Shown here: in pieces, positions 719 through 11,465 of the stretch | Layout: each line of letters starts with the position of its first letter | Numbering within the stretch: position 1 is the stretch's first letter | NCBI GenBank assembly: GCA_027021085.1 | Contig: JALUVB010000250.1 | Span: 1-16,625, forward strand | Source: a bacterium | Lineage (GTDB): Bacteria > CAIJMQ01 > JAADFP01 | DNA length: 16,625 nt | Reading direction: 5' to 3' | Position numbers and translations under genes: made by a program | Notes under the pieces: model-generated | What the model was told of the DNA's origin: nothing | The model's database searches: none | What the model saw: the letters and a program-made list of their open reading frames with translations, nothing else

Positions 719-1048
719 ATGAAAGCAGTTATAGGAACCGGAGGGAAGCAATACATAGTAAAGGAAGGGGAAGTCATTGAAATAGAAAGGGTGGGTGTTC
801 CTGCTGGCAAGAAGATAGAATTTAAAGAGGTTTTTGCCCTGGGTGAAGAAGGAAATATGAAGTATGGTAGCCCTGTTTTGAAAGGCGCGAAAGTAAAAGG
901 GGAAGTTCTGGAAGAGATAAAAGGGGACAAGAAAATCTCTTTCAAGTATCGTAAGAAGACGGATTCTCACTGGAAAAAGGGACATCGGCAGATTTTTACC
1001 CGGGTGAAGATAACTTCCATTATTGACGCAGGGGAAAAAGAGAAGTAA
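719..1048 (+). CDS. rplU: 50S ribosomal protein L21
   Basis: L21 binds 23S rRNA in the large ribosomal subunit. The 109-residue length is normal. The family pattern is clear: N-terminal AVIGTGGKQYIVKEGEVI, a middle VKGEVLEEIKG strand, and the C-terminal signature KKGHRQIFTRVKITSI. ATG 719 is preceded by a strong ribosome site (CAGGAGG, 7 nt before). Unusually, rpmA (L27) does not follow; most bacteria keep rplU-rpmA, often with obg. Instead an unknown membrane protein begins 10 nt after the stop, so the genes down to the HU-like protein probably share a transcript. Confidence 0.97.
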   Translation: MKAVIGTGGKQYIVKEGEVIEIERVGVPAGKKIEFKEVFALGEEGNMKYGSPVLKGAKVKGEVLEEIKGDKKISFKYRKKTDSHWKKGHRQIFTRVKITSIIDAGEKEK

Positions 1049-1058
1049 AATTGTTGCT

Positions 1059-1616
1059 ATGAGAAATAAAAAGATAGAATGGAACATTAATCTGGTTAAA
1101 GAGTTTATTGCACAGTGGCAAGATTTCGGCAACTTTCTCAATCTCCCTCCGGACAGAGAGGTATCTGCGGAAGACGAGCAGAAATTCATGGATATGAAAA
1201 GCATGATTGCCCGCAGATGCCAGGTTCTCCATGAGAGCTTAGAGCAGGGGTTTATGGTGGAAGGCAAGATCCTGGATGTTCTCTCGCAGGCTCCCGGGCT
1301 TCAACAGATACTTACCCAGCCAATGCATATCAAGAAATTGCAGAATGACTGGCATGCTGCCTACATAAGTCTGAATAAGCTCCTGGGAGGGCTGGAGGCC
1401 AAAAAGGCAGAACTTGCCCGGGTATCCCGGTTTGGGTTCAGCTTCCGTAATTTTGTCCGCCATCCCCTTACCACCTTAATATTTCTTATTGCGGTAATCA
1501 TGCTTTTTTATGCTTTCCTGGCAAGCTTCCTCACCCCGGAAAAAATCTCTGCATTGAAAGACAAACTTCCCTTCCTGAGCGAGAATGCTCCTGGGGACAC
1601 GGAGCAGCAGGAGTGA
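1059..1616 (+). CDS. Unknown single-pass membrane protein
   Basis: I do not recognise a family. With ATG 1059 the product is 185 residues; a TTG at 1023 would add 12 residues but would overlap rplU, so ATG is preferred although its ribosome site is weak. Residues 1-130 are mostly charged, helix-prone cytoplasmic sequence, including a long helical stretch around 85-122. One hydrophobic segment lies at about 137-157 (LTTLIFLIAVIMLFYAFLAS). A polar tail of about 28 residues follows. Arg and His before the segment suggest the N-terminus stays inside. The gene starts 10 nt after rplU, and its stop overlaps the start of the HU-like gene by 4 nt (GTGA), so translation is probably coupled. Confidence 0.75.
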   Translation: MRNKKIEWNINLVKEFIAQWQDFGNFLNLPPDREVSAEDEQKFMDMKSMIARRCQVLHESLEQGFMVEGKILDVLSQAPGLQQILTQPMHIKKLQNDWHAAYISLNKLLGGLEAKKAELARVSRFGFSFRNFVRHPLTTLIFLIAVIMLFYAFLASFLTPEKISALKDKLPFLSENAPGDTEQQE

Positions 1617-1890: not shown

Positions 1891-1920
1891 TTGCCTGTAC
1901 ATAATCGTGTTAACTAAATA
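1891..1920 (+). promoter_or_regulatory. Candidate promoter of the ABC exporter genes
   Basis: TTGCCT (1891-1896) and TAAATA (1915-1920) are spaced 18 bp apart. The -10 ends 6 nt before ATG 1927, and there is no Shine-Dalgarno, so a transcript from here would be leaderless. A second reading of the -10 is TGT-TAACTA just upstream. This is pattern matching only. Confidence 0.35.
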
Positions 1921-1926
1921 TTTACT

Positions 1927-2856
1927 ATGGGCGATGTTGCACTCCGGATAGAAAACCTTACCAAGGAATACAAAATCAGCAAAGGTGAACGGGTAAGAGC
2001 CCTGGATTCTCTCAACCTGCAAGTTAATGCAGGTACAATGTTTGGCCTGCTGGGACCGCAGGGAGCAGGCAAGAGTACGTTGCTCAAGATACTTGTGGGT
2101 CTCAGCAAGCCTACAAAAGGAAGAACTCTTATATTTGGCAGAGAACAAAGGGACTGGAGGACAAGAGCCCGCATAGGGTTTCTGACCCAGGAGCCATGTT
2201 TCTGTGATTTCCTTACCGGGGAAGAACTGCTTTTGCATACAGGCAGATTTTTTGGGATTCCACCGGAAGAGAGCAGTAAACGGGCAGAGGAACTTTTATC
2301 TCTGGTAGGGCTGGAAGAGGCAAAAAGCAGAAAAATCAAGGATTATTCCCGGGAAATGCTGCAGCGAATAGGCATTGCCAGAGCACTTATTAATGACCCC
2401 GAACTCCTTCTTCTGGATGAACCCGAGGCCGGGCTTGATCCCAGGAATCAAAAAGAAATCAGGGGTATAATAACGGCGCTCTCCGGCCGGGGAAAGACTA
2501 TCCTGCTCACTTCTTCCCATCTTGTGGAAACTGGCAGCATATGTGACTCTGTAGCAATTATTTACCAGGGAAGGGTGACACGAAGAGGCAGGCTAACAGA
2601 GTTGCTCAGGAAGGGAGAGGGGAAAAAAGTTACTTTCCGCATAGAAAAAAAGGGGGTATTAAATACTATTAATGCCTCTTACCGGAGCGAAGAAGCAAAC
2701 GGACAAATAACCGTGCATGTGCCCCATCAAAAAGCCTGCGATGAGATTATCAGCACTGTTCTTTCCAGGGGAGGAAGTATAATCCGGGTGGAAGATGAGC
2801 AGCTGTCCCTGGAAGAGATTTACCAGGAAGAAATCTTAAGGGAGACACATGTTTAG
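1927..2856 (+). CDS. ABC transporter ATP-binding protein (ABC-2/CcmA type)
   Basis: This is the ATPase subunit of an ABC-2-type exporter that works with the permease encoded next. The 309 residues hold one nucleotide-binding domain (about 5-225) and a C-terminal extension (about 226-309) of the kind seen in drug, polysaccharide and Nat/Bcr-type exporters. Motifs are Walker A GPQGAGKST (43-51; Gln replaces the usual Asn), Q-loop Gln88, Walker B LLLLDEP (160-166), the D-loop GLDP and switch His198. The signature is YSREM (140-144), lacking both glycines of LSGGQ; related exporters usually keep one (YSKGM). An in-frame stop at 1915 forces ATG 1927, which has no ribosome site. It overlaps the permease gene by 8 nt. 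The cargo is unknown. Confidence 0.93.
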   Translation: MGDVALRIENLTKEYKISKGERVRALDSLNLQVNAGTMFGLLGPQGAGKSTLLKILVGLSKPTKGRTLIFGREQRDWRTRARIGFLTQEPCFCDFLTGEELLLHTGRFFGIPPEESSKRAEELLSLVGLEEAKSRKIKDYSREMLQRIGIARALINDPELLLLDEPEAGLDPRNQKEIRGIITALSGRGKTILLTSSHLVETGSICDSVAIIYQGRVTRRGRLTELLRKGEGKKVTFRIEKKGVLNTINASYRSEEANGQITVHVPHQKACDEIISTVLSRGGSIIRVEDEQLSLEEIYQEEILRETHV

Positions 2857-6046: not shown

Positions 6047-6067
6047 CCGCTACTAACTACTCGCTAC
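6047..6067 (-). repeat. Heptad tandem repeat, 3 units
   Basis: Read on the minus strand: GTAGCGA (6067-6061), GTAGTTA (6060-6054), GTAGCGG (6053-6047). It is preceded by AGTAAATA and followed by a G-run. The first unit forms the last codons and stop of rfaE2. The same 7-nt units occur at 16101-16128. Confidence 0.8.
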
Positions 6068-6539
6068 TATTTACTCCCTTAATCTTATCCAGTATTCCGC
6101 TGGTGGAGTAGCCTTTCTTGTAGGGGATTATTACCACTTCCCCCCCCCATGATTCTACCAAATCCCCCCCTATTACTTCTTCTTTCTTCCAGTCCCCTCC
6201 TTTTACCAGGACATGGGGTTTTAATTCGCTAATGATATTGTAGGGGGTATCTTCTTCAAATATGGTTACGTAATCTACCATCTCCAGGGAAGCCAGTATC
6301 TCGGCTCGCTCGTCCTGTGGAAATACTGGCCTTTCCTTTCCTTTTAATCTTTGCAAAGAGGCATCAGAGTTTATTCCTACTATCAGTATATCTCCCCTGG
6401 CTTTAGCCTCCTGCAGGAGATAAAGGTGCCCGGGATGAAGAATGTCAAAACATCCGTTGGTGAAAACAACAATTTTCCCACTTCTTCTTTCTTCTTCCAG
6501 AATATTCCCCAATTCTTTCCTGGTTTTCATTTTGCCCAT
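6057..6539 (-). CDS. rfaE2: Heptose-1-phosphate adenylyltransferase (RfaE2/HldE C-terminal type)
   Basis: Transfers AMP from ATP to D-glycero-beta-D-manno-heptose 1-phosphate, giving the ADP-heptose used for the LPS inner core. It is a cytidylyltransferase-fold enzyme of 160 residues, matching the stand-alone domain; the kinase domain (RfaE1) is not in the window. Visible signatures are FTNGCFDILHPGH with HxGH at 35-38, VGINSDASLQRLKG, ERPV, EEDTP and VLVKGGDW. The end of the protein (VNSSE-stop) is encoded by the heptad repeat. Two long G tracts, G9 (6148-6140) and G7 (6170-6164), lie in the coding strand and encode WGGE and IGGD. ATG 6539 has no ribosome site; a -10 box lies 6 nt upstream. 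A second in-frame ATG exists three codons later. Confidence 0.94.
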   Translation of the reverse strand: MGKMKTRKELGNILEEERRSGKIVVFTNGCFDILHPGHLYLLQEAKARGDILIVGINSDASLQRLKGKERPVFPQDERAEILASLEMVDYVTIFEEDTPYNIISELKPHVLVKGGDWKKEEVIGGDLVESWGGEVVIIPYKKGYSTSGILDKIKGVNSSE

Positions 6540-6545
6540 ACTGCT

Positions 6546-6554
6546 ATTTTAGCA
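6546..6554 (-). promoter_or_regulatory. Extended -10 promoter of rfaE2
   Basis: The minus strand reads TGC-TAAAAT, an extended -10, ending 6 nt before ATG 6539. The -35 region is weak. With no Shine-Dalgarno present, the transcript would start at or next to the ATG. Confidence 0.45.
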
Positions 6555-7511: not shown

Positions 7512-7684
7512 TTCTTTTTAGTCTTGAAGTGGCTTAAGCCCAGCCTTAAGAATTCAGAAGCATCTTTTGCTATATGGTCAAGCTTGCGCGAAATTTTATT
7601 CATACGAACTTCTAATATCAGTATAAGCACCAGTATCAGAAACACTATCGCACTGGTCATGAAAACTAAATACGGTTCTGCCAT
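7508..7684 (-). CDS. Small membrane protein, 58 aa
   Basis: A short open frame not resembling any family I know. It encodes MAEPYLVFMT, then a hydrophobic segment of about 17 residues (roughly 9-25: SAIVFLILVLILILE), then a basic amphipathic tail (VRMNKISRKLDHIAKDASEF...SHFKTKKK). That is one membrane span with a positively charged cytoplasmic tail. Support for a real gene: a near-perfect ribosome site GGAGGTGA 5 nt before ATG 7684, a stop that overlaps the SDR-like gene start by 4 nt, and no other explanation for the 180-bp gap. It is divergent from the zinc-ribbon gene with 30 bp between start codons, so its promoter must lie inside that gene. Confidence 0.85.
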   Translation of the reverse strand: MAEPYLVFMTSAIVFLILVLILILEVRMNKISRKLDHIAKDASEFLRLGLSHFKTKKK

Positions 7685-7697
7685 TTCTTCACCTCCG

Positions 7698-7706
7698 TGA
7701 TATAAT
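7698..7706 (+). promoter_or_regulatory. Extended -10 promoter of zinc-ribbon gene
   Basis: TGA-TATAAT is an extended consensus -10 ending 8 nt before ATG 7715. It sits within the 30-bp gap between divergent genes, and its -35 region would fall in the first codons of the minus-strand 58-aa gene. The transcript would be leaderless or nearly so. Confidence 0.55.
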
Positions 7707-7714
7707 TTAATTAA

Positions 7715-7957
7715 ATGGTTAAATTAAACTTCTCTCTCCTTATTCTTATCTATCTTTTCCCCTGGCTGGTTATCCTCGGATACTTCTGGGTAAGGAATGA
7801 ATCCCGCAAGAAGATGCGTTTCCTTCCGCCTTCCCCGTCTCTCACTACACGCTGCCCCATCTGCACCCATGTTTACCTCTCTTCTCCCCAGGGGGAGTAT
7901 TCCCATTGCCCCCGTTGCGGCAGTCTCAACCTAAAAGGTCCTTCCGCAGAAGATTGA
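7715..7957 (+). CDS. Membrane-anchored zinc-ribbon protein
   Basis: Eighty residues. A hydrophobic N-terminus (about 6-25, FSLLILIYLFPWLVILGYFW) acts as a membrane anchor. A basic linker follows (RNESRKKMRF), then a four-cysteine zinc ribbon, CPIC (47-50) and CPRC (65-68), within RCPICTHVYL and HCPRCGSLN. The ribbon probably faces the cytoplasm, judging from the positive residues after the anchor. No function can be assigned; such ribbons bind metal and often mediate protein or nucleic-acid contact. There is no ribosome site before ATG 7715. The last 32 nt overlap the 3' end of the convergent foldase gene, so the two mRNAs are complementary there. Confidence 0.8.
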   Translation: MVKLNFSLLILIYLFPWLVILGYFWVRNESRKKMRFLPPSPSLTTRCPICTHVYLSSPQGEYSHCPRCGSLNLKGPSAED

Positions 7958-9476: not shown

Positions 9477-10820
9477 TTAAAGAATATAACGGGACAAATC
9501 AACATCTTCTGCCAGGCGGGAGAGTTTCTTCCTCACGTACGCCCGGTTGACTACTATCTTTTCTCCCTTTCTTTCCGGTGCAGTAAAGGAGATATCTTCC
9601 AGGACTTTCTCCATGATGGTATGCAGCCTTCTTGCCCCTATATTCTCTGTTTTCTCATTTACTCTTTCTGATATGGTGGCAATTTCATCCACCGCGGAAG
9701 GAAGCAACTTCAAAGTTACTCCTTCAGTAGCCAGGAGGGCCGTGTACTGCTTGACCAGGGAATTTTCTGGTTCCAGCAGTATCCTCTTAAAATCATCCTT
9801 TGTAAGAGATTTTAGTTCTACCCTTATAGGGAATCTTCCCTGCAGTTCAGGTATAAGGTCGGAGGGACGGGCGACATGGAATGCTCCGGCCGCGATAAAC
9901 AGGATATGGTCTGTTCTCACCATCCCATACTTGGTGGGGACAGAGGTCCCTTCAATAATAGGCAGCAGGTCTCTCTGCACGCCTTCCCGGGAGACATCCG
10001 GCCCGCTACCCTTTTCCCGGCCGGCAATTTTATCTAATTCGTCCAGAAATACAATCCCTAAATTCTCTACCCGGTAAAGAGCTTCCCGGGTTATTTCCTC
10101 CATATCCAGCAGCTTGCCGGTTTCCTCCTGTATAATTATTTTGCGTGCCTCTTTGACCGTTGCCTTTCTCTTTTTTCTTTTCCCCGGCATCATTTTGCCA
10201 AATAATTCCTGAAAGTGCAGTCCCATCTCTTCCACCCCAGAAGAAGAAAATATCTCCACCATGGGCATAATAGGAGATTCTACCTCCAGTTCTACAGTTC
10301 TGTCCTCCAGTTTTCCTTGCTCCAGCATTTTCCTGAATTTATTACGTGTATTCAATGTTTCTTCATCTGTTCTATTGCCCGGTACGAGTAGTTGCAACAG
10401 TTTTTCCTCGGCAAGTGCCCGGGCTCTCTCCTGGATAAGCCGGGTTTTTTCTTCTTTTACCATGCTTACCGAGACATCGGTCAGGTCTCTTATTATTGAC
10501 TCTACGTCTCTTCCTACGTATCCCACTTCCGTGTACTTGGTAGCTTCCACCTTGATAAAGGGTGCCTTGGCCAGGCGGGCCAGCCTGCGGGCAATCTCGG
10601 TTTTCCCCACGCCGGTAGGCCCGATCATGATAATATTTTTGGGAGCTACTTCGTCCCGCAGGGCCGCAGGAAGATTCTGCCTTCGCCAGCGGTTGCGCAG
10701 AGCAATAGCCACGCACTTCTTGGCCTCTTCCTGGCCTATGATGTATCTGTCCAGTTCCCGTACTACTTCACGCGGGGTGAGATTGTAAGCAATCAGCTTT
10801 TCGCTATCTTCTTCTTTCAT
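9477..10820 (-). CDS. hslU: HslU, ATPase subunit of HslUV protease
   Basis: AAA+ unfoldase that feeds proteins into the HslV peptidase chamber in the cytoplasm. With ATG 10820 it is 447 residues, as usual for the family. Features in order are [13 protein letters not shown], Walker A GPTGVGKT (67-74), the pore loop GYVGRD (100-105), the intermediate I domain (about 110-240), Walker B IVFLDEL (256-262), sensor-2 GARR (395-398), and the C-terminal DLSRYIL tail that inserts into HslV. The start overlaps the hslV stop (ATGA); longer upstream starts would run into hslV. The I domain carries a basic patch, [11 protein letters not shown]. Confidence 0.98.
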
Positions 10821-11353
10821 AGTTCTTCTATGGTCATATTGTGGTTGGTGAAAACGCATATTTCTGCCGCAATGCGCAGGCTTTCCTCCACTACTTCTCT
10901 TATGCTGAGAGAGGAGTGTCTTATAAGGGCACGAGACGCTGATACAGCAAAATTACCTCCCGAGCCTATCCCTATAATTCCGTCATCCGGCTCGATAACG
11001 TCTCCGCTGCCCGAGAGGAGGAAAGAGTGTTCTTTATCCGCCACTATCAAAAGTGCCTCCAGCCTTCTTAAGGCTCTATCTGTTCTCCAGTCCCTGGCCA
11101 CTTCAATAGCTGCCCTGGTCAGGTTTCCGTGGAAGCTCTCCAGTTTCCCCTCGAATTTCTCCAGCAGGGTGAGAGCGTCTGCCGTGGAACCGGAAAATCC
11201 TGCCAAAACTTTACCTTCGTATATTTTCCTTACCTTTTTTGCCTTGCCCTTTACTACACTTTCCCCCAGGGAAACCTGCCCGTCTCCTCCCATCACTGTT
11301 TTTCCCTTCCTCTGCACGGAAAGTATAGTGGTTCTATGCCATTCTATCTTCAT
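10817..11353 (-). CDS. hslV: HslV, peptidase subunit of HslUV protease
   Basis: Proteasome-like threonine peptidase that forms two hexameric rings capped by HslU. It has 178 residues. The catalytic Thr is residue 8 (MKIEWHR then TTILSV), so a 7-residue propeptide must be removed; E. coli HslV loses only Met. Other catalytic residues fit: Lys40 (mature Lys33) and Ser131 (mature Ser124) in [15 protein letters not shown] and the [12 protein letters not shown] helix are typical. It is first in the operon hslV-hslU-foldase. ATG 11353 has no Shine-Dalgarno, with a -10 box 6-9 nt upstream, and it is divergent from the phosphomutase gene. Confidence 0.98.
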
Positions 11354-11362
11354 GTTTATACT

Positions 11363-11371
11363 ATATTATCA
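11363..11371 (-). promoter_or_regulatory. Candidate promoter of hslV operon
   Basis: The minus strand reads TGA-TAATAT, an extended -10 ending 9 nt before the hslV ATG. An overlapping alternative, TATAGT (11365-11360), ends 6 nt before it. Both predict a leaderless mRNA. No heat-shock-type operator such as CIRCE was seen. Confidence 0.4.
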
Positions 11372-11378
11372 TAAAAGT

Positions 11379-11387
11379 TGGTATAAT
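11379..11387 (+). promoter_or_regulatory. Extended -10 promoter of phosphomutase-lysS-lol cluster
   Basis: TGG-TATAAT is a consensus extended -10. The -35 is weak. Transcription would start near 11394 and give a leader of about 70 nt containing a GGCAG/CTGCC hairpin (11411-11427), then the GGGAGGGAG ribosome site. It faces away from the hslV -10, only 7 bp distant. Confidence 0.55.
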
Positions 11388-11465
11388 ATGCACTGAGTTA
11401 CAGGTTGTACGGCAGGTTATTTCTGCCTAATATCATTGACTTTAACTGTCAGGGAGGGAGTGATA

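Follow-up and report, generated by a model that had tools for sequence, protein, structure and literature searches.

Promoters that abut start codons lacking a Shine-Dalgarno site suggest a class of leaderless genes in an uncultured bacterial lineage

Does a -10 box that ends a few nucleotides before an ATG lacking a Shine-Dalgarno (SD) site, as in front of the zinc-ribbon gene of this locus, mark a gene translated from a leaderless mRNA, and how widely does the genome use such starts? Leaderless initiation is an established, if minority, route into translation and has been documented in many bacteria. Within the window, by which we mean the whole 16,625-nucleotide stretch analyzed, the original prediction had placed boxes 6–9 nt before the ATGs of the ABC ATPase, rfaE2, zinc-ribbon and hslV genes, and all four lie where it put them (Table 1). 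It had also denied these genes a ribosome site, and we found no 4-base SD match at any of the four starts, nor at ATG 1059, which belongs to a fifth layout that had been overlooked (TTGACG-17-TAAAAT-7-ATG). The idea that the four share one layout stood for rfaE2, zinc ribbon and hslV, each of which has an extended -10 box (TGnTAnnnT), but not for the ABC ATPase, whose box is the weakest of the examples and doubtful as it has no sixth-position T and no TG, and the same place reads TGAATA in a genome of the same genus; TTGCCT lies 18 nt upstream of this box. As to the claim that most other genes here carry an SD site, a match was identified in 8 of the 15 (rplU, HU, permease, tyrS, 58-aa gene, foldase, phosphomutase and lysS), which include all five genes that had been named, but the remaining seven have none, and several of those overlap or closely trail the upstream gene.

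Table 1. Candidate leaderless starts of the window and the promoter elements assigned to them
Feature	Position	Strand	Remark
Zinc-ribbon extended -10 box, TGATATAAT (TGA-TATAAT)	7698..7706	+	8 nt before ATG 7715
Zinc-ribbon -35-like element, CTGCCA	7678..7683	+	4/6 to TTGACA; 17 nt before -10
Zinc-ribbon protein gene, 80 aa	7715..7957	+	SD-less; predicted leaderless or few-nt leader
rfaE2 extended -10 box, TGCTAAAAT (TGC-TAAAAT)	6546..6554	-	6 nt before ATG 6539
rfaE2-type nucleotidyltransferase gene	6057..6539	-	SD-less; predicted leaderless
hslV -10 region	11360..11371	-	Two alternative readings of the box
hslV -10, reading 1, TGATAATAT (TGA-TAATAT)	11363-11371	-	Gap 9 to ATG 11353
hslV -10, reading 2, TATAGT	11360-11365	-	Gap 6 to ATG 11353
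hslV gene	10817..11353	-	SD-less; predicted leaderless or leader up to about 3 nt
Post-rplU -10 box, TAAAAT	1046..1051	+	Includes rplU stop TAA; 7 nt before ATG 1059
Post-rplU -35 box, TTGACG	1023..1028	+	5/6 match; exactly 17 nt before TAAAAT
Gene after rplU	1059..1616	+	SD-less; fifth leaderless-type candidate
ABC ATPase weak -10 candidate, TAAATA	1915..1920	+	6 nt before ATG 1927
ABC ATPase gene	1927..2856	+	SD-less; doubtful leaderless candidate

The genome to which the window belongs (G000) is a 1.93 Mb assembly of 307 contigs, mostly of 43–49% GC. Its statistics cover 568 kb readable of the 1.93 Mb (21 short contigs were read as N), alongside pattern counts over the whole genome. Genes were called with a simple purpose-written caller based on codon usage and a coding score, with upstream sequence unused, and the starts depend on this caller; the gap is the number of nucleotides between the end of the -10 box and the start codon, and expectations were derived from gaps 14–89. 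A search for relatives identified six further genomes of the same class and none from other classes of the phylum. Compared with it were G001, which shares its genus, G002, which shares its family, and G004, from another family of the same class; the second family comprised G003–G006. Stretches of G000, G001, G002 and G004 were sampled, and the comparison of orthologues was confined to overlapping samples.

The window's three TGnTAnnnT boxes are beyond chance given a background of ~0.02 per gene at 5–10 nt (2.53/115), and the same signal recurs in its genome, where TGnTAnnnT stands at a gap of 5–10 before 15 of the 115 SD-less genes that come first in their operon, against 2.53 expected (Poisson p 8e-8), compared with one of 88 genes with an SD site (Fisher p 0.001 between the two groups). 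The counts at gaps 5 to 10 were 1, 6, 4, 2, 2 and 0; this peak, centred on 6–7 nt, is what came of the genome-wide distance count proposed in the original prediction, and in the window's own genome it is confined to SD-less operon-first genes, none of the 83 SD-less inner genes having the box in this range. Such boxes do precede 7 of 91 SD-less inner genes in G002, where they are probably internal promoters. Among SD-less first genes the pattern was found in 9 of 45 in G001 (0.39 expected), 6 of 74 in G002 (0.71 expected) and 7 of 113 in G004 (1.18 expected). The peak survives when the window locus and its G001 counterpart are left out, with 13 against 2.53 in the window's genome and 7 against 0.32 in G001. 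In addition, an unseeded EM motif search of the window's genome arrived at TGaTAaAAT with most of its weight at gaps 5–10, in ~29 of 115 genes, i.e., about 25% of SD-less first genes (likelihood 87.6, vs. 56.9 for the best shuffle); run on G001, G002 and G004 separately, it settled on other sequence and not the -10 motif, which the fixed patterns did recover in these genomes. A stricter rule assigns 32 of the 493 genes called in the window's genome (about 6%) to the leaderless type.

Counting patterns without gene calling gave a consistent picture within the window's family. TGNTAWAAT-N6-ATG occurs 18, 24 and 13 times in the whole genomes G000, G001 and G002 (reversed pattern 0, 0 and 1), TGNTAWAAT-N7-ATG 11, 13 and 8 times (reversed 0, 1 and 0), and TGNTAWAAT-N16-ATG 5, 5 and 1 times (reversed 0, 1 and 0), some of the latter containing a gap-6 match. 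Summed over the second family, the pattern occurs 15 times at N6, 24 at N7 and 28 at N16, and its reverse 8, 15 and 10 times, so that the strict pattern has no gap-6 excess over gap 16 there and the excess sets the window's family apart (gap 6 vs. gap 16, Fisher p 4e-7). The two same-family relatives agree strongly and the second family weakly, although G004 nonetheless shows the smaller first-gene signal given above.

The boxes are accompanied by a second promoter element that played no part in how the sequences were selected. When the 67 sequences of the family were aligned on their -10 box, 19 matched TTGACA in at least 4/6 positions with a 17-nt spacer, whereas every other spacer from 10 to 29 gave only 0–6 of 67, and the peak at 17 is present in each genome separately, G004 included. 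In sigma-70 promoters about six bases separate the -10 box from +1, and with this usual geometry a gap of 6 would put +1 on the A of the ATG. Based on these data we consider it very probable that two start systems operate in one genome, and that first genes abutted by a promoter give leaderless mRNAs; the position of the boxes, their enrichment, the -35 spacing, the restriction to SD-less first genes and the conservation are observed, and the RNA 5' end and leaderless translation are what we infer. Operon-internal genes and genes with a 5' leader would mostly start at SD sites, while a minority of first genes would have a sigma-70 promoter, often with an extended -10 (TGnTAwAAT) and a -35 ~17 nt upstream of it, whose -10 ends 5–9 nt, most commonly 6, ahead of the ATG. 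In that arrangement RNA polymerase would begin transcription at the A of the ATG or within about 3 nt of it, and a 70S ribosome would bind directly at the 5' AUG of the resulting leaderless mRNA. In the window the genes of this predicted kind would be rfaE2, zinc ribbon, hslV and the gene at 1059, and possibly the ABC ATPase. The mixed start system of the original prediction is likewise borne out by the -10 peak at SD-less first genes, by the SD sites of about half of the genes, and by the 16S rRNA of relatives: in both G001 and G004 its 3' end reads CCTCCTTTC, with the anti-SD CCTCC, so SD initiation is intact in these relatives and the system mixed (no 16S gene was found in the window's own assembly).

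Other readings of the boxes were considered and rejected, among them that they owe their position to chance, to base composition or to wrong gene starts. Hexamers resembling a -10 box are common in AT-rich intergenic DNA, and TAnnnT alone is expected 19 times at gaps 5–10 in the window's genome; as 37 were observed, as TGnTAnnnT gave 15 against 2.5, and as the reversed-pattern controls are near zero in the window's family, we give chance hardly any weight, and the position profile had already refuted it. Only slightly less remote is the proposal that the starts are misplaced, the true ones lying farther downstream and the boxes being ordinary -10s of leadered genes. The start calls here rest on coding score only, and codon 4 of rfaE2 is another in-frame ATG; yet the hslV, rfaE2 and zinc-ribbon proteins align with those of their nearest relatives from residue 1 or close to it, and starts farther downstream would not give a sharp SD-less peak at gap 6. 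Moreover, long frames are opened by 14 of 18 gap-6 ATGs and by 0 of 4 gap-16 ATGs, and 33 of the 42 ATGs at gaps 5–9 open frames of at least 80 aa.

Somewhat less improbable, though still unlikely, is that the AT-rich boxes belong not to promoters but to an unstructured, A/U-rich region for SD-less initiation, of the Bacteroidota type or bound by S1, in transcripts that start farther upstream. Nakagawa 2017 (PMC5397173) cautioned that S1 binding may underlie an AT bias ahead of SD-less starts. Many genes here, about 41% of those called in the sample of the window's genome, also lack both an SD match and an adjoining -10, which makes a further SD-less start mode possible; overlap coupling may explain part of this class and our crude SD rule another part. 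An A/U-rich region would not, however, account for a position-specific motif (TG, T, A, T) that keeps a constant distance to the start and is concentrated in first genes, for a -35 at exactly 17 nt, or for the lack of TGnTAnnnT at inner SD-less genes in the window's genome (though not in G002). As a reading of genomes, the leaderless interpretation is well supported.

The layout is conserved among close relatives. Homologs of the zinc-ribbon protein were identified in four relatives (G001, G002, G004 and G006; 93, 59, 53 and 52% identity), from which we conclude that the ORF is a real gene, and TATAAT precedes the orthologous ATG by 10 nt in G001 and 5 nt in G002, next to a divergent SD-bearing gene. 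In the window (7684-7715) the SD of this neighbor, the 58-aa gene, lies on the opposite strand inside the spacer of the zinc-ribbon promoter, and likewise in G001 and G002. For rfaE2 the box and gap are identical in G001, and in G002 the gene sits among other neighbors and has an SD site; the hslV -10 region is kept in G001, is replaced by TGTTATCAT with a gap of 7 in G002, and gives way in the other family to an SD site with TATAAT farther upstream. The layout after rplU is also found in G001. The reverse case is lysS, which here is an operon-internal gene with a weak SD match and has adjacent -35, TATAAT and ATG in G002. Among leaderless-type orthologs of G000 and G001 the class agrees in all four true pairs; one pair that seemed to switch class was a false ortholog at 35% identity and was set aside. 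The layout is thus kept within the genus, and its change to an SD site appears to go with a place in an operon (rfaE2) or with a promoter farther upstream (hslV). This may mean that in this small lineage of phylum rank promoter location decides gene by gene, an abutting promoter giving a leaderless start and a promoter moved upstream, or a gene moved into an operon, an SD-led one, and that leaderless starts spread further in the window's family than in its sister family, a combined reading to which we would give an even chance. In the 112 bp between hslV and the divergent phosphomutase gene (11354-11465) both start modes may be found together: hslV has its adjoining -10, and TGGTATAAT on the + strand (about 11379-11387) would give phosphomutase a ~70-nt leader with an SD site.

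The same script, applied to named loci of Bacilli, Nitrospinota, Acidobacteriota, Desulfo/delta and FCB, identified no SD-less first gene with the layout, in sets that, like that of Nitrospirota, were small (35–53 SD-less first genes, 28 in Nitrospinota). Nitrospirota loci had it in 9 of 53 SD-less first genes (0.47 expected), nine different genes with TGnTAnnnT 5–9 nt before the start (loci L054, L056, L058, L060, L063, L067, L079, L100 and L112). A search of the open literature found no paper linking leaderless genes with Nitrospirae, which is not proof of absence. A divergent pair 250 bp apart in L132 (1501-2534) has both genes in the leaderless style, TGGTATAAT-7-ATG and TGGTATACT-7-ATG.

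The closest described counterparts are the TA-led leaderless genes of Zheng et al. 2011 (PMC3160421), SD-less genes with a Pribnow-like signal ~10 bp before the start that occur beside SD-led genes. As here, TG precedes the box (there in some low-GC genomes), orthologs switch between SD and TA signals, and the leaderless mode is only possible for operon-proximal genes; the groups covered there do not include Nitrospirota or, as far as can be told, the window's lineage, and the strict-rule share of about 6% here is below those of Actinobacteria (about 20%) and Deinococcus-Thermus (about 40%). In Deinococcus-Thermus (PMC12340547) experiments showed that leaderless mRNA is made from a -10 box lying a few bp ahead of the ORF and that the spacing between the two matters; the motif there is TAnnnT, at about one third of D. 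radiodurans genes, whereas the predicted leaderless starts described here have the more complete TGnTAwAAT and a -35 at 17 nt. In the account of start classes given for GeneMarkS-2 (PMC9581028), leaderless and SD starts coexist in one class and leaderless transcription is predicted for 21.6% of bacterial species; those classes come from representative genomes, and our placement of this genome rests on our own counts. What we describe would therefore be a new lineage for a known mode, that of leaderless, TA-led genes, and not a new mechanism. The bacteria with a class of leaderless genes would thereby gain an uncultured lineage and also Nitrospirota, and orthologs such as hslV and rfaE2 appear to change between the leaderless and the SD mode from one relative to another. 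A gene caller that expects SD sites may, in this genome, put starts in the wrong place or overlook short genes, the zinc-ribbon gene being an example.
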